Below, in pieces: positions 27,101-63,466 of a stretch of 64,000 nucleotides of DNA; position 1 is the stretch's first letter; each line of letters starts with the position of its first letter. This DNA comes from Bugula neritina (Eukaryota; Bryozoa; Gymnolaemata; Cheilostomatida; Bugulidae), in the NCBI GenBank assembly GCA_964035545.1, contig OZ037770.1:13594642-13658641 (forward strand). The letters run 5' to 3'. The notes under the pieces are model-generated. The model made no database searches. It was not told the DNA's origin and worked only from the letters and a program-made list of their open reading frames with translations. The position numbers were made by a program, and so were the translations under genes.

Positions 27101-28236
27101 ACCTTACCAAATAGACTATGGTTTACAGCTATACCAGCCTAAACTACAATAACTCAATTATAGCCAAATATTGAAAATAAGAGTTGACAACTCTTACAAA
27201 TTACCATTGCACTATAATAATACATCTTATATTATTATACTATTTAATCAACAAAGCTACCATTTTCTCTATAAATTACGAGACAAGGGCTTCTTTATTG
27301 AAACTTTGTATACTAACAAGTTTAGTGGTATTATTGAAGCTTTCCATATAATAAGCAAATATGAAGCTATAACTTGCACTAACACTGCTAGAGCTAGCGA
27401 TGATATCTTAAGAATCACAGTATTCTTGCTTCTAGGAAATATATTTTGGTTGGGAGTTTTTAAATTTAGTTGTCAACTTCCAAGCCATACATAACACACG
27501 TGAAGATTATTTTATAGATATTCAACTTGCAAACGTCAGTAATTTTTATTCCAGGTCTATAAAGCCAACCAACTTAACTTTAACCCTATACTTTGCACAT
27601 CAACAATGACTTGAATACATGAGCATGTAGCACACATTTTATTTTTTAAATGTTACAAAAAAATAATAAAAATATGATGTTTAATGAAAAAGTTATAAAA
27701 GCTAATGCAGTTGAATATTGTTACATCTTTTACAGAGTTAAAGTACACGTTGAGTTATAAAGTAGATGATTGGTGAGCATAAAGAATACAAAATCCTTTG
27801 CTAAAAATACACGAGATAAAGTATTAAAAATAAACAACTTCCAACTTGAAATTTAGGATTACAGAACTTTCCAAATGCAAGTGCATACAGAGCAGCCATT
27901 TGAAATATAAAGTTGAAATTGCAAATAAAATAAATCACATCAAAACATGGCATAACTCCAAAATATTATAAAACTTTATTAGCTTTAATATAATGTAGAT
28001 TACATCATTTATAAGAAGTGATATTGATTGGCCATACAGATAAATGTGGTGCCCACTCAATCGAATTAGGTGAAACTATAGAAATACAGGTACAGTTACA
28101 CATATCTACTGAATGATGTAAAGTTATGAAGACAGAATATTCATAATTGAATGATAACTAGCTATACTATGGATATGATAAAATTTACTGATTTAGCATT
28201 GTTTTATAGCACTCTTAACCTGCAAGTTTTACATGT
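24190..28236. other. Gap between IPCEF1-like gene and kinase-caspase gene
   Basis: No supported coding exon. A minus-strand block near 25506-25433, bounded by TAG/AAG-like and GTAAGAG signals and GC-richer than its surroundings, could be a 5' UTR exon of the IPCEF1-like gene. TATTAG-type repeats fill 26165-26930. A candidate minus-strand AATAAA for the kinase-caspase gene is at 27980-27975. A 107-codon plus frame (27171-27494) has no domain and is not called. Confidence 0.5.
26165..26930. repeat. TATTAG/TATTAC simple-repeat region
   Basis: Long interrupted runs of TATTAG, TATTAC and ATTACTATT hexamers, with one unique insert at about 26535-26600. Intergenic. Confidence 0.8.
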
Positions 28237-31200
28237 CTACAGTCCAGGAAAGAGGTAAAGTTTTCTCAGGTTGGTGAGGGTATCCCAGGCAATAACCAGC
28301 TGTCCATGGCCAAAATTTCTCTTCACACACAAATTTCTCACTTTAGCTTGTACCTGCAATGGATATGTAAACATTATATATATATTTTAGAATTTAGACA
28401 AATAATATGTACAACATAAAATATAATAGGAGAGGGCGAAACTGGCTGAACCAAAAAATGCAGTTTTGAGTATAAGTTTTGAAGTTTAAATTTATTGCAA
28501 ATCCAAAGACCAGCACCTAAAAATTAAACACATGTTGCTGTCTTTGCCCATTAAAACTAAATGTACAAACAATTTACTCACTAAGTTAGAGCCAATTATT
28601 TACCTGTAAGTTTTTTGGCACAACATGGTAAAGAAGGGCATACCTGTTTGAATATAGCGCAGAGATCATGGTGACCGGCATGTTTGTACATTGAAGATAC
28701 AAGAGCTCTGATCATTAGGGACCCATACACAGGATGCCGCCATGAAACAAATGCTAAAAGTGGAATCTCGATAGTTAGAAGTGATATATAGAATACAGAA
28801 CAGTATAGTATAACAACAGCATCATGATTTCAACCTTGCTGAAACAAGGTAATCTTATTTGAACAACAATCTAGACTCTAGAGTAATAATAAACCTTGTC
28901 AATTTTCACAAAAAAACTATATTTTAGACCTTAAAAGAAGAACTCTTAAACTGCTTAGAACATAGTTAAATAATTATTATGAAAAACAATTTGAATAAAA
29001 CAATATTCCAGTTCCAGTTACACATCACAACTGGTTGTCATAAACAGAAAGCTGATGTAATCAAATAACTGATGAAGTCAGAGGAAATATAGCTAAAGGC
29101 TGCAGTCAAAGTTTAAAAAATTGAAGTTTGAAATAATATGCTACACCCAAGTTGCAAGATCGAACATTAAATTATCTATTCACAATGAGACTTGAATAGA
29201 GTTTTGGTAAAAGTAGTGTGGATAATAAAGTTACACTCACATTCCACACTAGCTTTCACCACCAGTAAATCATCGTATACTAGTTTATGGTGAGAGTGAG
29301 TAGAGGAGCTGGCTTGCAAGTGGACCACATCATCATCAGCTTGAGGTTGGGAAGGTTTGACATCAGAATTCACGCTGGCATCAATGCTAATACCACCTGT
29401 TCTGTCTTCACATTTATTATAAAATAAAGTGTATTAATAGTAGTGAGCTGATGACGTTGACCTAATTACTGGTAGACTAGGCATGTGATTGGTCAATGCT
29501 ATAAGTTAGTCAGTAATACCTTCTATTGACAAATAATTTCGGCTTTGTAGCTGAGCGTTTTCAACTAAAATCAACTTCGGCTCACATCCAAACAGCTCAC
29601 CAAAATATGTGAAATGCTGTATAACCCTACTAGGGCAACAATGATGCTACATCATCCTGCTAGGATTTGCACCCCTATGCCATTATCACTACGATTCCCT
29701 TATCGTTCCCATTATGCGAGTGGATTTTTTTATTCGCCCCATGGAACTAGTTGCAAAACCTTCGATGAAAAAATTCCTTTCCATTATATGAATGATGGAA
29801 ATGGTTCCTTCGGTTAAATGGAATGAAACATTTTGTGACGGAAGCAGAGATCAGCAATTGTAGCGGCTAGTTCATAGTTACCCAATAATAATTATAAGTT
29901 ACAACCTGCACTAAAGTGTACTTCGGCTCATAACAATTTAAATTATTTCATTTATCTTAGCTGCTATTAGTTAAAATAATTACCTATCATCTTAAATTTA
30001 TAAAAATTTTCCGTAAGCCAAAGCATTCCCAAGCTAAAAATAAGTTGACAGCTATTTTCATTTTCTGCATCGAAACGCAGTGCCCATCAATAAAATTTTC
30101 ATAAACTTTTGAAAAATAGTTCAACACTGAAATGTTCACAAAGGATATGAGTCAAGACACACATCTGCCTATTAGCTATGATAATGAGCACTATGATCAA
30201 GTTCTACCAAGTTATGATCTTCCTAATCCAACATCTCACCTCCACTGCAAGCCTGTATGATAACGACCTTAGGTTTGCCGGCCATTCCTCGGAAGTTCAA
30301 GGGCGTCAGAAGGTCATAGACATCAATGAGACTGACTTTCTTCAAATCTGTGCCGTAGATGTAGTTGTCTTTGCTACCGTGAGACATGATCACCAAAACA
30401 TGGCAGCCAAAGTTCCCGTGTCCGTCATATCTAACTTCAGATTCCACTGCCTCTAGGATACCCTGAGGAGACGAATTAAAACATCTCAGTTAAAGTCTAC
30501 TCAGAACAGAATGGTAATCTATTCTAAACAGTGCTGGTCTGATGGTGCACATGCTACGCCAAGTTATTGCCTTAAATATTCATAGGTTTTCCTCCTTGAA
30601 GTTTCCCCAGACAAAACAAATAAAACTATAAGTGGCTGGACTTTATAAAATAAACCCAAATACTATTCATCTATAATACATTTACAATGTAGTTGCAGCT
30701 AAACCAAAAGGAGTTGATTTTACTTCAAAGTATAATTTTCTTACACTGAAGTTTTCACAAAAGAATACAGTAACTTACAGAAAGAATAGTGACTGGACGG
30801 CAGAAGAAAAATAGTATTCTATTAAATACATGTGCAGTCAAGCCAAAAAGAGTTGAACACTCAACGATGTTCAATAGTAACCATAGAACATATATAAAAC
30901 AATTATATTATCAATAGAGGTCAATAAGATCAATGATTACCGTAGCAGTAAGATTACTCTTGATCTCCACTTCAAACTTGAATTCTTGCAACATGGCTTC
31001 CATGTTCATCACGTCAACATCCGAGCCATCTCTCCGAGCCAATGCTGTTCCCTCAAAGTTCACATTGTTGATTATTAAGGCTCTACCCCTTGTTGGCGTC
31101 ATATCGAAAACCTAGAAAGTCAAGATCAATGGGAGGTTACAGTGAACACAGTGAGTTTATTTTCAATTTAATAGCAATTATGCTCTTGTGCTTAGCTCAG

Positions 31201-34200
31201 TGTGTAGTGTTGTTTGTAGTGTTGTGTGCTGGGTCACATATAGTGTTGTGCGTAATGTCAGGTGTAGTGTTGTACGTATTGTTGCAAATTATTTTTCAAC
31301 AAACGAGTATCAATATAATATTTGAATTATGAAAATCTCAACAAAAATCTAATCTATCTTTGTAGAGATACAAAACATAAGTGACATCTTTTTTTAAATT
31401 GATAGTTCAATATTCATTTTCTTTCTCTAGTCTTTGCCCTAAAAATTATTGAAATTGCAGTTCAAAAAAGAGAACAAATTCAAATAATATTGATTTTAGC
31501 AATATCAGACAACAGTATCACACGACTTACTATTTCAGTAACATCAGCCAATAGTGTCACATGACTTACTATTCCAACCAATAGTATCACACGACTCACC
31601 TTTTTAGTTTGACGAAGTTGTTTTATTTTATTATTGATTGTAGGTTTCACACTCCTTCTTATCAACACCTTTTCATCAGTGATGTCTCCACTGGGCAGCA
31701 GACATTCATCCTCATCGGAGAGATCACTCAAATCATCGTACTCTTCTGTTGTCATTTGGCGAGCTAGTTGGCCATGACCTCCTACTAGAGCAAACATATC
31801 AGTAACTTGAAACCTGTCAACTTAACTTAACGTTTTATTTCTGTATGTTAAATTTTTCTCCCCAACATCTTTTCCATAATGAACTTATATCAAGCAGCCA
31901 CATCTCTTTTTTATTTTGACAGAACAAATTTTAGAATAGATTTTGCAACAAAAAATGTGTTTTTAAAATAAGAAAACAAATACGTTTTTTCCTGTAGGTT
32001 GGTTAAATCTTGCTATTGAAGTTATAAAAGTAAGGTTTTTCCTTATTGAATTCATATCTAGCAGAAATAATTCATAACTTTGTTCGTTTATTAAACAGAA
32101 TAGATTTAATAAAACAGAATGTTCACGATAAAAAAGAAAATAAAAAAATTCACCACTTTCTGTGAAAAACCAGCAATGCTTCAACAACTCCTCAGCCGAG
32201 GGTCTTCTATCGTAGTTGTAATTGAAGATTATATCGAGGAAGTTTCTAGCATCTGAGTTGACAGAATGTTCCAGGTGGTACTGAGGTCTTTCCTTATTGC
32301 CAATTCTGAACATCATCTGAAAGTCTTTGAGCTGACACCATGGTGGTTGTTTGGTAAACATTTCAACCAGTGTGGCACCTACACTCCTACAATATATGGA
32401 GTTGATCTAAAAACTTTTCCTTCTATGAGATTTGGAGAATGTTTACCTTTTTAAAAAGACTAATATTCTCAAAAATCTGTCAGATTCCAGAGAATTCAAG
32501 GCAGGTGTGAGATGTAACCTCCTTGACACTGATTAGTTGCCGACTATTTTGGACTTGCACCTCCATTTAGGTCCCACCATTACCTCCACTTGGGTCCCAC
32601 CATTACCTCCACTTGGGTCCCACCATTACCTCCTTTTGGGTGACACCCCATATTATTTCCTTTCTCATTAAACTTATGGATGAAATAGAACAAACAAATT
32701 TTCAAATGGATATTCAATATGTTTCCATTGTCCAAAAGAACTCCTATTTGAGTTAGAATGACAAACCACATATTTCTATAGTCTCTAAAACAACTACAAT
32801 AAAACAGTCCTACCATTCTGCTAGCAACCAGTATAGCACTACGTGGTAATACAAACATGGTCAATATTAATTCAGTTCTACAGCCCTTTTCACTTCACTT
32901 GCTCTGCTTTGGTATTTTCGAAACTAATTTTACAATCACATCCATCAGTATAATATGAATGATGGATACATAAACACTGTTTTCTATTTACCAGATGTCC
33001 GCTTTCCTTCCATATTTTTCACCAGCAATAACCTCGGGCGCCATCCAATGCGCCGTACCGCAAATACCAGTACTGTGAGATCTCCTGCTAGCATATGTTG
33101 AAAACACATCGTATTTTGAAACACCAAAGTCTGCCAGTTTTATGTTGTCTTCATTGTCAAACAGTATATTTGAGCCTAAAATATATTGCAGTACACTAAG
33201 TCATTCACAAAGCAAGAAGAGCTGCAGTGGAAGTCAGGGTTGACGCGATTTGTAACATAAAATAGTTTGCGGCTGTTGTAAAAGATGGAGTGAACTGTGT
33301 TTAGTAGATTGAGGCATGGTTATATAGCAAATACAAAAAACACTTGTATATGTTGAAGATAGGAAGACAACATGAGCTGGATCTTTGCTATTTTCTAACT
33401 AGTAACTAGCTAGGACTGTACTGGTAACTAGCTAGGGCTGTACTGGTAACTGGCTAGGACTGTACTGGTAACTAGTTAGGACTGCACTGGTACTGTCAGA
33501 CTCAGTGAAACACTATCAGTTAACTAATGAAAACCGTTACTCATATTTTACTCTTTTCAAAATAAATGTAATGAAAACTTAAAAAACTCCTGAGAACTTA
33601 CCACAATATAAAATGTATAAAAGTAATAATAAAATCAGTATAGAACCTTTCAAATCTCTGTGCATTATGTGTTGTCTGTGAAGATAGGCGAGTCCCTCTA
33701 AGATTTGATAAGTGTATTCTTTGCATTTGTTTTCACTGAAAGCACCATCACGGTCTAGACGCATTCTAACTGATCCGCCGGGCATATACGCCATGTATAT
33801 ACACAGCAACTTGGTTTCTGTGTAGAAAATTACATAATAAAATAAGTAACAGTTTATACAAAATACGTCTATAAAAGTTATAAATAACGCTAAAAGACTA
33901 CTGAAAACAACTGAACAGACATACAGACAGATAAAAACAAAAAGTATGCAACATTTTGGATATAGAAACTAGGCTAGATTAACTCTGCTTTGTTTGATTC
34001 CTAATAAAGACATCAATACGAAACTGCATAGCAGCTAAAAAAATTTAGTTTAGAATATTTCAAGTTGACCAAAATTTGAAATTGTGCAGCTACTCCACGA
34101 TTGTTCCTAAAAAAGTAGCTCATATAATTTGTTTAGGGTACATTTTTAATTAAACAAACAACATATAAAGTACACATGTATATTAAACAACATATAAAGT

Positions 34201-35210
34201 ACACATATATATTAAACCATATATAAAGTACACATGTATATTAAACAATATATAAAGTACACATGTATATTAAACAATATATAAAGTACACATATATATT
34301 AAACAATATATAAAGTACACATGTATATTAAACAATATATAAAGTACACATATATATTAAACAACATATAAAGTACACATGTATATTAACACACCTGGTC
34401 CATGAACACCATTCCTATACTCTCTGCCATAGCATTCCAGAATATTCTTGTGATTCAATCGCCGCATTATTTCCACTTCCTGAATAGCTTTGTCTATTTC
34501 CTGAAAATAAATTTGAGAACTTAAGCTATCTTGAAATCTGAAGCTGTACACTTTGAGCAGGAAGAGTCATGTGACTAACCTCTTTATATTTCTTATTCTC
34601 AACCAATCCGAGCTCCACTTCCTTAACAGCTACCTCCATTCCACTCCTTCCATCCAGGTACTTGAAAACCTTGCCATATGCTCCAATACCGAGCAGATGT
34701 CCTCCAGATAGCTGGTCTAAAATCACAAAGACATTGAAGTGCAGACAAATTGTCAAATAAAAAAAATAAAATGAAAAAAGTTGTTAGCTAATGTTAAACA
34801 GGCAACTTGGAAATTTGAAATTTAAATGATATGATAAAAGTCATTAGCCTGTGACACTACACAATTAAGCAAGGTTTGCTCTAAATACTAGAGGCACTCA
34901 TGTCAAACAGCTGACCATAATTTATAGAATAATCTCCAAGTTGGATGACACCATCGGGATCATTGGAAGTCTCCATTTCCTCGTCAACATCTACAAACAT
35001 TCTTTTGACAAGTAAATATCTGCATCTACTAATTGTTAGTGAAGTTGCGATGTTTATCAGTAAGCATTGAAGTAAACAGAAAAATTAAATCTAATTTAGA
35101 CAAATACACTGACGTAAAAAAAACACTTCATAAAAATATCAAAAGCTCAAACCATTAGCAAATTCAATATTTAGTAACTCACCCCTCTGATTATTCTCGC
35201 TAGCACTCAT
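28237..35210 (-). CDS. MEKK-type protein kinase fused to a caspase
   Basis: Thirteen exons: 35210-35183, 34990-34916, 34716-34580, 34500-34395, 33817-33647, 33175-32992, 32386-32154, 31784-31600, 31111-30941, 30462-30240, 29396-29241, 28753-28644, 28353-28237. They join in phase without a stop: 1,896 bases, 631 residues. Kinase (about 37-311): glycine loop GIGAYG (44-49), VAVK Lys66, alpha-C Glu near 90, HRDLK (168-172), Asn175, DFG (188-190), GTAHWMAPE; closest to MAP3K2/MAP3K3 (YMPGGSV, YGRKADIWS). Linker (312-373): acidic, with DDLSDLSDEDE. Caspase (374-631): RGRALIINN, SHG with His458, QACSG with Cys502, acidic interdomain loop, SWRHP (S1-pocket Arg) and the p10 end. There is no PB1, CARD or DED. 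Expected activities are MAP3K signalling and Asp-directed proteolysis in the cytosol. The start is the only Met in exon 1. Exon-7/8 junction: AGT-G joined to TA-GGA, in frame. Confidence 0.85.
31531..31600 (-). repeat. Triplicated in-frame splice donor in the kinase-caspase linker
   Basis: After exon 8 (ends 31600, donor GTGAGTCGTGTGATACTATT) the same motif recurs as GTAAGTCATGTGACACTATT and GTAAGTCGTGTGATACTGTT. These alternative donors would end the exon at 31570 or 31531. The extensions are 30 and 69 bases, all open and phase 0, so they would add 10 or 23 residues between kinase and caspase. Confidence 0.7.
33410..33492. repeat. 22-base tandem repeat, about four copies
   Basis: Units of the type TAACTAGCTAGGACTGTACTGG, in the intron between kinase exons 5 and 6. 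No function evident. Confidence 0.8.
34148..34390. repeat. 29-base minisatellite next to a kinase exon donor
   Basis: About eight copies of a 29-base unit (TTAAACAACATATAAAGTAC followed by ACATGTATA, with small variations). In gene sense the array begins about six bases after the donor of kinase-caspase exon 4 (exon ends 34395) and fills nearly half of that intron. Confidence 0.85.
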
Positions 35211-52755: not shown

Positions 52756-55700
52756 TCATGAATCTGTTAAGGTGCGCACTGAAACTCGGCAATTGAGTTC
52801 ATTCATTGGCTTGCATGTGAGCTGCTGGCCAATCAGAAATGACTCAGAGGGATGCAACTCCATACTATAGTGCTGAAAGAACTTGGCCAACAGTAACTTC
52901 ATCTCCATCTGCAAAACATAGCCTCGGCTCTGTGAAACATCGCATTATTAAACATTAAAGTCTTAGTAATTTTAAGTTATTTTTTCCACCACATAATGTG
53001 GACAGACAACTCCTTTTTCTTGTGTTATCAAAGTTTATACATGGGTTATTAAACTATAATCATCAAGACATGATGTTACAATAACAGTTTATATAAACTG
53101 AATCTGTTGCGATTATTGCTTTTATTTTATACACTAACTGTGCATTGCTTATTAAGAGTTATCCTCCCATTATGTGATGTACTTTTCATGAATAGTTAAA
53201 AGTTATCTTCTTATGTGTTGGATAATAATAGAACAGGAGCATAATAAAAACACATTTGAGCCTGAGAAGCAATAATAAGTAGGTATATTAAATAGCGAGT
53301 ATGGATTGAGTAGCCAACAAATAAGAAATGTTCTCAGACTAGGAAATGCACCAACCTGAGCAAATGTCTGTCCAACACAGTTCCTTGCTCCAAGAGAAAA
53401 GGAGAGAAAGGAATATGAGGGAACTCTGTGTAGTATTAAGAGAAAAGAATATTGTGTTATCACTTTTATCTACTAGTCCAAGTTTAAGGAGTTGTCAACC
53501 CCTTTGACTGACTGAAATTATGTTTATACACTTTGCGGTATTCTAGTATAAAACTAGACCAATTTTTTGTCTTTCAATATTAGACTAAAAGTATAGCTAG
53601 TTACTACAGAAACTGAATCATCTAATAATCATTTTTGATTAATTTCTTTACTGCCTGACTGAAACAGAGTCGATTACAAAATGCATGCAGTGTTTGTTGT
53701 AATTAATAAAAAAACTATACAATTATTACTATAAATGATGTATAAAGGCAAAGTAGCATGGTTTATATATTTGATTGAACATTTTAACATATTCTAAGAA
53801 ATATAATAATCATGTATTTAAACAGAAATTTATACCTTTTAGCAGCCTTGGGATCAAACCTATCAGGGTCAAACTTGTCGGGATTCTCAACGTACCGGCC
53901 ATCGTTGTTGGCTCCAGGAATATTTAACTACAGAAAAGAAGAGTATATATAATATACTAGTAACCCTCTGCATGATATGAAACTGTGATATATGAATCTA
54001 ACAAGAAGCCAACAATAATATAGGTTAAACTTGGACAGCCAGTAACTTATAATTAAATAGCCAATAAGCTAAACCTAAACTAAATGGGTCAAAAGATTGG
54101 AATTGAATAGCCAATAGGCTACATTGTATGTCAGTACAATTAGCTTACAATTATGTTGCTATTGGCAGGGATTTTCCAACCATCAAGCTCAGTTTCCCTG
54201 GTATTACATCGCAGTGCTCCCGGCACCACAGAGTATTTCCTCAACGATTCTTTGATCAGAAGTGATGTGAAAGAGAGCTTCGTGATGTCATCATAAGTTA
54301 TGAAAGGTCTTTGACCAACGACTTCGTCAACTTCCGCCAGCAATCTGTGAATTGAACCACTAAATGTAGATGCATAGTAATTTAAAATGCAATGCAGGCT
54401 CGAAAGTGTTGAATTGAATAATTACAATTAAGAGTTGTTTTACTTTAAAATAACTCAGAGATGAAATATTTTTAGAGTTGTCCCATGTTGGAACTTTTTG
54501 CAGCTCATAGAACTAAAAATATTGAAATTAATAATCACAAAAACATCACATTACCCCATGTCATATCACATCATATCGATCTATATTATAGCATAGGTGT
54601 GCATTATACAAACATCGATCCTGACCAATGAGATGAGCTATTACATGAGTGACTGTTCACTTTCTCGGCTAACTTCTACACATCTGAATGAATTTGCACT
54701 TGAAACAGCACAGAAATTAAATTTTGCTACTTCAGCTGACCAAAAGAAATTTTGCTTTGCTTCGAAACACAAGCAATTTGAATTTCTTGATAATTGGATG
54801 CACTTGCTCTGAACAAAACATCATAATGTGGTTGGAGGCTGAATGCCGGTACTTGCTATATTTTAATGAGACAGTAAAAATAATAAGAGAGTTGCAAAGT
54901 AAGTAATAAGTGACAGATTTATTAATTATATTCACTTTGTAAAATTTTTTCATATTTTCAGCTTGTGTTCTTGTCAATAATTTTATCCAATGATCTCTTA
55001 AAGAGGTTTTTGACTACAAGTTGAAAATAATTTGCCAGGACTTCATAGGAGGTACTAATGACTTGCCTCAAAATGTGGAGCACCTGCACTAATTGTTTAG
55101 GAGAAAAGGTCAATAACGTCTGCATTACACAAATCTATTCATGTTTTGAGGCTTAGTTTCATATTATTTGTATTACATTATGTTTTGTTATTATAAAAAA
55201 CAGCATTTAAACGTAAAGCACACTACCTTTATAAAACATAGACTGTCAAGTGCATGAAAACTCCCAAAGCTGTTCACTAGACATTTTAATTTTTTTATTG
55301 TTGAGATTTTAAGACATGGCCTTAGAGTAAAAACAAATGACGCTAACCTTTGCAGCAAATCAGGTCTACGCCCCAACTCCATGAAGATAAAGGCCATGCA
55401 ATTAGCTGATGTTTCCATTCCGGCCAAAATCATAGTGACAAAATCATCAACTATAGTCTGGAAATCATATGCTGAAACAGACACAACACATAGGTGTACA
55501 GAGATTCTCCTTGTGCTGTGAAAGGCAAACAACACATCACTAGAATAGCTCTGATGAAATACTACGGTATATAAGACAGTTGCTATAAAACAACAGCTAT
55601 AACTACTCATGTCCTGCAATATTCTTTTAATATTTTAAACCCATGCAAAATTTATTCTACCAATCACAAGTCAGCACACATCAACAATCCCAACCAATTT

Positions 55701-60654: not shown

Positions 60655-61900
60655 GCTTCTTTACATCTTGATCTTGATTGGGTTAAGTTCCAAGATCTCT
60701 CGGAGAGAGTAATTGTTGGACCCTCGGATCTATCCAGGCTCAAAAATCCGCTACTATCTCCCCCGTATGGAGCTCCCGGACAGTGCGCAACAGGAAACCC
60801 TGCAGGTACAGACTCGAATCGCAGGCTATAGCATTGTAGGTGTTAATACGGGTATTCATGTTATGAGTTGAGGATTTCATAGATTTAAGTGTGTTATTTA
60901 AGGTTGGAAATAAATCATCATTAGCAGTAATATGACACAACAAAGAAATTCTCTGTGACTGTCTGCGCTTTCTTAATGTTTCTAGGCCTAGGTCAAATTT
61001 GGCATCTGTTACCGATACTTCTCTACCCTTAAAATTTTTAATAAACCGTACAGCCCTATTTTGAGTAACTTTTAATTTTGTTATTAGATGTTTATTGCAT
61101 GGGTCCCATACTTCAGCAGCATATTCCAGGAGAGGTCTACAAAGAGTTTTATATGCAAGAATTTTAACATTCTCTGGGGCATTTCCTAGTGTGAGCTTGA
61201 TTAAACCTAATACTCTGTATGCCTTTGATATGACATTTTCGACATGCTTATTCCATTTCAAATCTGCTGATAGCAATATTCCAAGGTATTTTACAACTCT
61301 AACTCTATTCAGGGGATCTTCTCCTAATTTATAAATGAAGACATTTTCCATATTTTCTGTTTTCTTACCAAAGGTGATGACATTACTTTTCTTTGAGTTA
61401 AACTTCATATTGTTTTCTTTTACCCACCTATAAAGTCTAGAAAGATCTCCCTGTAGTTTATGATGATCATTTGGATCAGTAATGGGCAGATAAACAAGGG
61501 TGTCCTCAGCAAAAAGCCTGATTGTACTATGTGTAACACAGTTTACAATGTCATTAATAAACAAAACGAATAATGTTGGACCCAGCACACTTCCTTGCGG
61601 AACCCCGGAAGTCACTGGTGCTAAGTCCGAAGATACCTCGTCAATGACCACTCGTTGTGAGCGTCCAGTTAAGAATGATAAAACCCATCGGATAATACAG
61701 GGATTTATTTTTAACAATATAAATTTATTTACAAGGATATGATGATCAATTACATCAAAGGCTTTAGAAAAATCCAGCACAACTGTATCTACAAAATGCC
61801 CTTTATCTATATGCCTTAATAAATCGTGGTTGACAGTAGCAAGCTGAGTAACACATGAAAAGTTGCGGTGAAAAACATGTTCCAAACTTATGATTAAGTA
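60655..61900 (-). mobile_element. 5'-truncated non-LTR retrotransposon (LINE)
   Basis: Contains the reverse transcriptase frame 61885-60740 and a short 3' tail ending near ATCAAGATCAAGATG. The endonuclease domain and first RT motifs expected upstream in gene sense are missing, as in a typical incomplete LINE insertion. It lies just upstream of the P450 gene in the same orientation. Confidence 0.75.
60740..61885 (-). CDS. Non-LTR reverse transcriptase fragment (jockey/CR1-like)
   Basis: An open frame of 381 codons. It has RT motif A with VVLDFSKAFDVIDH, motif B SGVPQGSVLGP, then FINDI, motif C as FAEDTLVY, and a thumb region with VKYLGILLSADLKWNKHV and the AYKTLCRPLLEYAAEVWDP segment typical of jockey-type ORF2. 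The usual motif C is FADD; here the first catalytic Asp is Glu, so the enzyme is probably inactive. Full ORF2 proteins are about 900-1,000 residues, so the endonuclease and finger domains are lost. The intact frame suggests a fairly recent insertion. The start Met is only the first in frame, not a true initiator. Confidence 0.85.
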   Translation of the reverse strand: MEHVFHRNFSCVTQLATVNHDLLRHIDKGHFVDTVVLDFSKAFDVIDHHILVNKFILLKINPCIIRWVLSFLTGRSQRVVIDEVSSDLAPVTSGVPQGSVLGPTLFVLFINDIVNCVTHSTIRLFAEDTLVYLPITDPNDHHKLQGDLSRLYRWVKENNMKFNSKKSNVITFGKKTENMENVFIYKLGEDPLNRVRVVKYLGILLSADLKWNKHVENVISKAYRVLGLIKLTLGNAPENVKILAYKTLCRPLLEYAAEVWDPCNKHLITKLKVTQNRAVRFIKNFKGREVSVTDAKFDLGLETLRKRRQSQRISLLCHITANDDLFPTLNNTLKSMKSSTHNMNTRINTYNAIACDSSLYLQGFLLRTVRELHTGEIVADF

Positions 61901-63466
61901 ATGAACTAGACAGCAAAATTTTAATTAGATTAGTGAAGCAAACCCTGCTGAAACTGCTACAGGCCAATATGCAATCTTGGAACTTTAATTGAATATAATT
62001 AATAAAATTTACGAGCTATTCGATCTACTAATCTAACTCTAAGTGAGTAACTTGCACACACAAACTTGGATTTTGAAAATATACAATTCAAGAATAAAAT
62101 ATATATTACCTTGACAGACAAAATGAGTAACTGTCAAGTAAATTAACTAATAGGTAACTTACTAATATTGTGTTAATGCTAATGGTTACTAGTTCAGCAA
62201 TGAGTAGTTTTAATGTTATTAAAATAACTTCAAGAATCAACTAATCTATTGCAGTTAGTCATGATTTACTAATCTATTTGATAGTGATTATATAAATTAC
62301 TTCGATTTTAATTGCCACTTAAAAACGAATAAGGAATACCCCTAGAATAAAATACTTAGATGTATTACCGAAACAATCTGAACTAGCTTATCATCACCAT
62401 GGCACTTTAACAAGGTTTCGTGCTGCAGTTCACATACAAGTCTGCAAAATTGTCGTCTGATAAAACACGTGCTTTTAAAATGTGTTTTCCAGCAAGAATA
62501 GTTCAAGTTGATATAAACTTACGGGTCGCTCACGACGACGGACCTTGTTTTGCCTAAACAAAGATCTGCGTGCTATAACTTAGTTGGTTACATATTCACC
62601 CAATAAAGGATTTAGAGGACCAAATATTTGTTGTTATTGGTTGCATGATAAGCGTGCCTGATTGGCTATTACTGTGAGGAAGTACCGTCCTTGACATTTG
62701 TCAATGGAGTAATGCAACGTATCATGATCATTATAATTCTCATAATCATGATCGTGATATTCCCAGAGTAAACACTAATTAGTGATTATTTGCATTAAAA
62801 ATCACTACAATCATATTCCTTAATAATAATGTATAGTTTGTCAACATAACTTCTTTTTTACCACGATTGCATACCTATATTAATATTGGGGTGTTACTTT
62901 TTAATACTGATAGTGATAGTGAATGTGATAGTAAATTTAAATCAATAAAATTATAAATGTAATACTTAGGCCTATAGTGTTAGTGCTGCATTTTATAATT
63001 ATTTTAAATTTATACTTGTAGTTGTTCAACAAGTATAAAATAAAAATGTATCATTATTAATAATAATAATAATTGAGTATTAAGAAGTGTTACTGTTATC
63101 ATCATGTTGATAATCATAATGATTTATCATAACGTTACGGAGTAATTTTCACTTGAGTTTGAGTTTGTTACGCAAGTTGATGTTAGTCATGTCTTAAAAC
63201 TAATAGTTTACAGCTCTTATATTTAGTCACTTATCATCTAAAGCTAACTATTTTAAAATGTTTTTCAATATAATAATGTGTTAACAATGCTCCTTAAACT
63301 GTCTGTTCTTTACAAGCCAATATGATTAGTTTTGTAGGTAAAAGCGTCACACTCATCATGTAATATACACAGAGTTGAGTATGCAATGTTCTTGTATATC
63401 ATGTTATGATTTAATCATTGTTTTATTAAATAGTCAGTGTGAATTACTTGCCTATGCTCGCACACA
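61901..63466. other. Intergenic interval upstream of the SLC33A1-like gene
   Basis: AT-rich, with short direct and inverted repeats (ATCATGATCATTATAATTCT region near 62725-62760, TAATAATAATAAT near 63058). It should contain the SLC33A1-like promoter and any upstream P450 promoter elements displaced by the LINE. No supported coding exon. Confidence 0.5.

Follow-up and report, generated by a model that had tools for sequence, protein, structure and literature searches.

Structure of a predicted kinase-caspase gene in Bugula neritina

The stretch of DNA analysed here, referred to as the window, comprises 64,000 nucleotides from the bryozoan Bugula neritina (assembly GCA_964035545.1, contig OZ037770.1, positions 13,594,642 to 13,658,641 of the forward strand) and contains, on its minus strand between positions 28237 and 35210, a predicted gene in which a MEKK2/3-type protein kinase is followed, from the N- to the C-terminus, by an acidic linker and a caspase. 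Thirteen exons, the borders of which were re-derived from the DNA, join in frame to encode 633 residues from an ATG at 35210 to a TAG at 28237. This is in full agreement with a preliminary description of the locus, which had reported an unbroken frame, phase 1 at the junction of exons 7 and 8 and phase 0 at that of exons 8 and 9. The exons are bounded by AG acceptors and GT donors, with exon 1 opening at the proposed ATG and exon 13 closing at the stop codon, and no N occurs in the stretch covered by the gene. We are unsure about the N-terminus and the start codon as modelled; an alternative in-frame ATG is present at 35000, just 5' of exon 2. At exon 8, a NAGNAG acceptor pair allows a start at either 31784 or 31781, both in frame, while the start of exon 11 at 29405 is required by phase 1.

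With regard to domain content, Pfam assigned residues 41-307 of the window protein to Pkinase (E 2.9e-66), with one further kinase model overlapping this stretch, and residues 380-601 to Peptidase_C14 (E 7.3e-41). Matches to NCBIfam were all far below cut-off, and none were found in the window with Rfam at gathering scores. Among solved structures, MAP3K2 (9p6a) was nearest to the kinase half (E 1.4e-60, 208.9 bits), 70.8 bits ahead of the runner-up (138.1 bits). Residues Lys66, Glu90, Asp170 and Asp188 (K-E-HRD-DFG) are present, the two aspartates and the lysine at exactly the positions reported earlier. Judged by its fold and its nearest structure, the kinase half is a MAP3K of the MEKK2/3 type (STE11 group). 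MEKK2/3 carry a PB1 domain; the window protein differs from MAP3K2 and MAP3K3 in that it has no further Pfam domain on the N-terminal side of the kinase and in that a caspase follows on the C-terminal side.

The top structural matches of the caspase half were caspase-1, CED-3 and caspase-9, and it shares with these animal enzymes the catalytic dyad (His457 and Cys501 in our model, the latter within QACSG), the sequence SWRHP and the order of p20 and p10. On the basis of fold, dyad and the QACxG and SWR motifs it is a true caspase of family C14A. The SWR motif, which we take to provide the substrate-binding Arg of p10, reads SKIHP at the corresponding site of the second fusion treated below. 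Both residues of the dyad had been described as intact, which is correct, although they had been numbered 458 and 502; these numbers are one higher than ours and fit the other NAGNAG acceptor (exon 8 beginning at 31784 instead of 31781). Unlike in other animal caspases, the kinase occupies the place of the prodomain. The mark of a classical initiator caspase, a CARD or DED prodomain, was not found when the full protein was compared with Pfam at E values up to 0.001, which returned kinase and caspase models only.

Table 1. Parts of the predicted kinase-caspase gene, in the order of transcription (positions in the window)
Feature	Position	Strand	Content
Exon 1	35183..35210	-	MSASENNQR, phase-1 end; candidate start codon; a short phase-1 first exon (MASS) also proposed by eye at the second locus
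Exon 2	34916..34990	-	acidic N-terminal tail; no counterpart in the second-locus model
Exon 3	34580..34716	-	glycine loop of kinase, Lys66
Exon 4	34395..34500	-	kinase alpha-C, Glu90
Exon 5	33647..33817	-	kinase hinge through HRD Asp170
Exon 6	32992..33175	-	DFG Asp188; activation segment GTAHWMAPE
Exon 7	32154..32386	-	kinase C-lobe, phase-1 end; predicted phase-1 donors here also in L050-L054 and the second fusion
Intron 7	31782..32153	-	AATAAA at 32092, 31915 and 31839; read-through from exon 7 open until stop at 31965
Exon 8	31600..31781	-	acidic linker (DDLSDLSDEDE...), entered in phase 1 and left in phase 0; NAGNAG also allows a start at 31784
Exon 9	30941..31111	-	caspase p20 begins
Exon 10	30240..30462	-	caspase p20; catalytic His457 (SHG) and Cys501 (QACSG)
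Exon 11	29241..29405	-	end of p20 and intersubunit loop
Exon 12	28644..28753	-	caspase p10, SWRHP
Exon 13	28237..28353	-	end of p10, TAG stop; AATAAA downstream at 27980

A second locus of the same layout

When the window kinase and the window caspase were searched in six frames against the assembly from which the window derives (215.8 Mb, 295 contigs), the matches listed included one other site with adjoining kinase and caspase matches (contig C1, C1:33267390-33274921). The model derived for this second locus consists of 12 exons encoding 599 residues, namely a short first exon assigned by eye, followed by five exons for the kinase, one for the linker and five for the caspase. For the predicted protein, Pfam reported the kinase at 1.4e-69 and the caspase at 8.3e-36, plus two further kinase-like models over the kinase. 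The kinase, linker and caspase exons (3 to 13 of the window gene) recur, with identical phase at every border common to the two loci, and the distance between the last kinase exon and the linker exon amounts to 372 nt in the window gene and 629 nt at the second locus. Since the same exons are joined in the same phases at a second place, the junction appears to reflect more than chance. The single gene model of the preliminary description, with a MEKK-type kinase placed N-terminally to a caspase, is thus borne out by two domains in one frame and by the repetition of this layout.

No further MEKK-like kinase joined to a caspase was found when the 10 kb following 68 listed kinase matches on their own strand were inspected for a caspase, the kinase matches being the best-scoring candidates after exclusion of matches on small contigs and of repeats of one exon between searches; only the 10 exon matches of the two fusions were followed by one. 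Between the two fusions, differences at first, second and third codon positions number 95, 78 and 148 in the kinase (264 codons), 21, 16 and 34 in the linker (52 codons) and 80, 51 and 130 in the caspase (253 codons). This excess at third positions is as expected for coding sequences under constraint, with the proviso that it mirrors the history of the domains as well and not solely the time since fusion.

The linker exon belongs to a large LRR-Roc-linker-caspase family

The linker exon gave 93 matches in the genome at E values up to 1, a weak tail included. Within 8 kb upstream on the same strand, a Roc match was present for 90 of them, a MEKK kinase without Roc for two and neither for one; Roc and kinase never occurred together (0/93), and no Roc match was found within this distance of the linker exon of either the window gene or the second fusion. 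A listed caspase match followed downstream in 83 of the 90 Roc-preceded cases and in both kinase-preceded ones. Searches starting from the other modules gave a similar picture: 104 of 111 genome matches to the Roc part are followed on their strand by a caspase match at a distance of up to 9 kb, and 129 caspase anchors, among them some double listings of one gene, have Roc (107), kinase (2) or neither (20) within 12 kb upstream.

In three close caspase relatives (L055 to L057), the same linker exon is preceded by an open frame of about 700 residues. The frame of L055 (C1:34973000-34978500) has LRR and Roc matches in Pfam (Roc 6.3e-8, above cut-off), with COR-A below cut-off (0.0046), and its LRR-Roc part matched LRRK1, LRRK2 and bacterial chains labelled Rab family protein in the structure set; the latter are presumably Roco proteins. 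These genes share with the window gene homologous linker and caspase exons and, in the three loci read, the phase-1 acceptor of the linker; they differ from it by the N-terminal LRR-Roc(-COR-like) exon, which the window gene lacks, and by the absence of a kinase. That members of the family are single genes is inferred from exon order, as is the case for the window gene itself. By these comparisons, the kinase stands where an LRR-Roc(-COR-like) module usually sits in a large LRR-Roc-linker-caspase family, and the two kinase genes are exceptions within it, given that Roc precedes 90 of the 93 linker matches.

The proposal that the kinase takes the place of a prodomain therefore stands, but the displaced module is not the CARD or DED named in the preliminary description. 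It had furthermore been suggested that cleavage of the acidic linker by the caspase could release the kinase. The linker is no special device for this purpose: only two of its 93 matches are accompanied by a kinase, so that it is part of the caspase cassette, and a kinase-specific function is ruled out by the 90 matches lying behind an LRR-Roc exon. Both fusions keep the DLSD core of the linker, as do all 12 LRR-Roc genes with a linker match that extends over it (four further matches end short of the core). The linker may serve the caspase cassette as a processing or phosphorylation site.

An observation on the near LRR-Roc caspases L035 to L048 concerns their active sites, in which SK.H replaces SWR and, in nearly all of them, E[VT]C is found at the active-site Cys, which suggests an altered substrate choice or activity.

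Probable route of formation

In all seven kinases read (both fusions and L050 to L054) a phase-1 donor is predicted at the end of the kinase domain, and a phase-1 acceptor, as read from the sequence, opens the linker exon in L055 to L057 and in both fusions. The joining of a phase-1 exit to a phase-1 entry with conservation of the frame is classical exon shuffling, and because the donor of the kinase matches the acceptor of the linker, this is the likely route by which the kinase-caspase fusions originated. In L053 and L054 the phase-1 donor is followed by other long open frames, beta-propeller-like by eye, at the place taken by the caspase in the fusions. Clusters of MEKK-like kinases related to those of the fusions are located at C8:9677860-9716831 and C8:9958924-10013574.

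Where the match is continuous, linker, intron 8 and exon 9 of the second locus are 78-93% identical at the DNA level to LRR-Roc caspases, the best match of the stretch from linker to exon 9 being L055 with 93.3% over 404 bases. At the protein level, the second fusion is 81-96% (exon 9) and 85-93% (exon 10) identical to the near relatives compared; identity to the window gene over exons 9 and 10 is 65% (130 columns). Within the 500 bases 5' of the linker exon, many pairs among 11 LRR-Roc loci match each other, at up to 97.8% over 500 bases, while the corresponding 500 bases of the second fusion match none of the 11. Intron 7 of the second fusion likewise matched none of nine related kinase loci. 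Since the second fusion matches LRR-Roc loci from the linker onwards and none upstream of it, the break lies at the linker exon.

We lean slightly towards a picture in which the caspase cassette with its phase-1 entry is a shuffling unit with LRR-Roc-COR as its default partner, before which a MAP3K would have been installed at least twice independently, such that MAPK signalling and caspase activation would be fused in one polypeptide with interchangeable activators.

Proposed function of the chimeric protein

We propose, at a probability of about 0.78, that the locus is a single gene encoding a chimeric caspase zymogen, and that a MEKK2/3-type MAP3K was joined in it, via a phase-1 intron, to a linker-caspase cassette; the proposal includes separate fusions at the two loci and activation by proximity. 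Caspases are activated on being brought together, Roco proteins dimerise via COR, and MAP3Ks are activated by clustering. Against this background, the N-terminal module could serve both as an exchangeable signal input and as a means of creating proximity: a ligand or a nucleotide would cause Roc-COR to dimerise, triggering of its own pathway would make the MAP3K cluster or dimerise, and either module would pull two caspase domains together. The caspase would then cut itself at aspartates of the intersubunit loop and in the acidic DLSD-type linker, which would free caspase and kinase simultaneously and thereby yield a MAPK stress signal and protease-driven cell death from one molecule. The caspase may be controlled by the kinase, or the kinase by the caspase.

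Alternative explanations

Several points weigh against this proposal. The proximity mechanism is drawn exclusively from family knowledge. In exons 9 and 10 of the second fusion, 9-14 of 14-22 codons changed relative to seven LRR-Roc caspases alter the amino acid, so that constraint on its caspase is not strong. Intron 7 of the window gene contains three AATAAA motifs, where the introns of the gene taken together would predict 0.35 (P 0.007) and the composition of intron 7 itself 0.93 (P 0.06). Two of the three lie past the in-frame stop that ends a read-through of 63 residues, and an in-frame ATG (DMFALVG) is present just 5' of the linker exon. Together, ATG, AATAAA motifs and read-through stop make separate kinase and caspase products possible; the latter two alone would allow for a kinase-only isoform. 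If a MEKK kinase gene ended in intron 7 and a caspase gene started at or before exon 8, with an accidental in-frame junction, the two ATTAAA motifs in intron 7 of the second locus and the stop within a few residues of read-through there would also find an explanation. We nevertheless regard two genes as improbable: the phase-matched junction is repeated at the second locus, where there is no in-frame ATG between the linker exon and the preceding upstream stop, a donor matching in place and phase is predicted in the kinases L050 to L054, an LRR-Roc exon precedes 90 of the 93 linker matches, and kinase and linker are separated by merely 372 and 629 nt. A single gene with several products, i.e., the full-length kinase-caspase and a kinase-only isoform arising by polyadenylation in intron 7, would account for the cluster of AATAAA and the open read-through and is possible, albeit doubtful, since intron 7 of the second locus has two ATTAAA but no AATAAA and a read-through confined to a few residues, and since the number of AATAAA in the window gene's intron exceeds chance only weakly when judged by the composition of that intron. 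That an artefact of assembly or annotation joined unrelated genes is hardly credible, given that the structure recurs at a second locus, that the two contigs measure 16.0 and 35.6 Mb and that the gene stretch is free of N.

With regard to the number of fusion events, a single ancestral fusion could have been duplicated, followed by overwriting of the caspase half of the second copy through gene conversion from LRR-Roc caspases on the same chromosome. Contig C1, on which the second locus resides, carries many such caspases, and trees of the caspase alone leave a sister relationship of the two fusions unrejected by the approximately unbiased (AU) test (p-AU 0.0513 with 24 rows, 0.0865 with 21 rows). 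The kinase halves, on the other hand, are rejected as sisters, both without an outgroup (9 rows; p-AU 0.000183), where a branch with support of 100/100 splits the second fusion, L053 and L054 from the window gene, L050, L051, L052, L019 and L024, and with two outgroup kinases (11 rows; p-AU 0.00131), where the second fusion groups with L053 and L054 (82/87) and the placement of the window kinase is open; the pair tested was chosen after the identities had been seen, and the branch of the window kinase is long. In addition, SWRHP and QACSG of the window caspase contrast with SK.H and E[VT]C, which are shared by the second fusion and the near LRR-Roc caspases; only in L044 is E[VT]C replaced by EAC. 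This contrast fits separate origins. We consequently consider a single fusion unlikely and, provided that both are real genes, favour two independent fusions with some confidence.

Further observations in the window and the assembly

Two other features of the window are located on its minus strand. An open frame of 394 residues at 60740-61924 resembles a non-LTR reverse transcriptase by its motif, and a frame at 55191-55634 contains AGMETSAN, which we take to be a cytochrome P450-like I-helix, and is probably an exon of a P450 gene. On small contigs between C15 and C288, kinase frames contain TAA and TAG and hardly any TGA, similar to ciliates with reassigned stop codons; these contigs probably stem from a cobiont in the assembly.

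Relation to known systems and implications

Coupling of Roc-COR to a kinase in a single chain is known from the group of LRRK1, LRRK2 and bacterial Roco proteins. The LRR-Roc part of the sister gene L055 matches these proteins, and yet the linker is preceded in B. neritina by either Roc or a kinase and not by both. Joining of caspases to unusual partners has been described in amphioxus, for which hybrid genes of the TNFR-caspase and LRRs-caspase type have been reported, the former with cDNA support (PMC2575513). These resemble the genes studied here in that a receptor- or sensor-like module is joined straight to a caspase as a signalling shortcut; a kinase-caspase gene is not named in the available passages of that article (PMC2575513). 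Amphioxus caspases with reshuffled DED and DD prodomains are likewise on record (PMC3196919). In the sponge Amphimedon, many death-fold/TRADD-N proteins have variable C-termini, including kinase or caspase domains, and bacterial caspases can have variable C-termini with kinases among them (PMC8195603). In the Amphimedon proteins, however, kinase and caspase are listed as alternatives behind TRADD-N, and the passages available do not describe a MAP3K joined to an animal caspase (PMC8195603). For Dysidea avara, a paper on NLRs has in section 3.3 a figure whose legend names both CASc and COR as domains that are depicted (PMC12909245). In the titles, abstract openings and passages of the open-access papers listed, no gene of the MAP3K-caspase or Roc-caspase type was found named, an absence that carries little weight. 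As far as this literature goes, we judge that caspases with unusual input modules are known and that a MAP3K as the input module of a caspase appears to be new.

In well-studied animals, MAP3Ks and caspases interact in trans. The presence of a kinase and a caspase in one protein provides a physical and testable link between them and poses the question whether the kinase triggers the protease or the protease releases the kinase. The second locus, which repeats this layout and seems to have been assembled independently, suggests that stress signalling and cell death can be wired into one protein in this animal; a repeated, separate origin would speak for a useful combination of kinase and caspase rather than a freak. 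The sister family with LRR-Roc in front of the same cassette represents a domain swap provided by nature, which could show what the prodomain has to contribute to a caspase, and it bears on the function of Roc-COR, the module of LRRK2, which here apparently precedes a protease and not a kinase. The joining of a Roc-type GTPase to a caspase on the scale of about 90 matches is perhaps even more remarkable than the kinase fusion.

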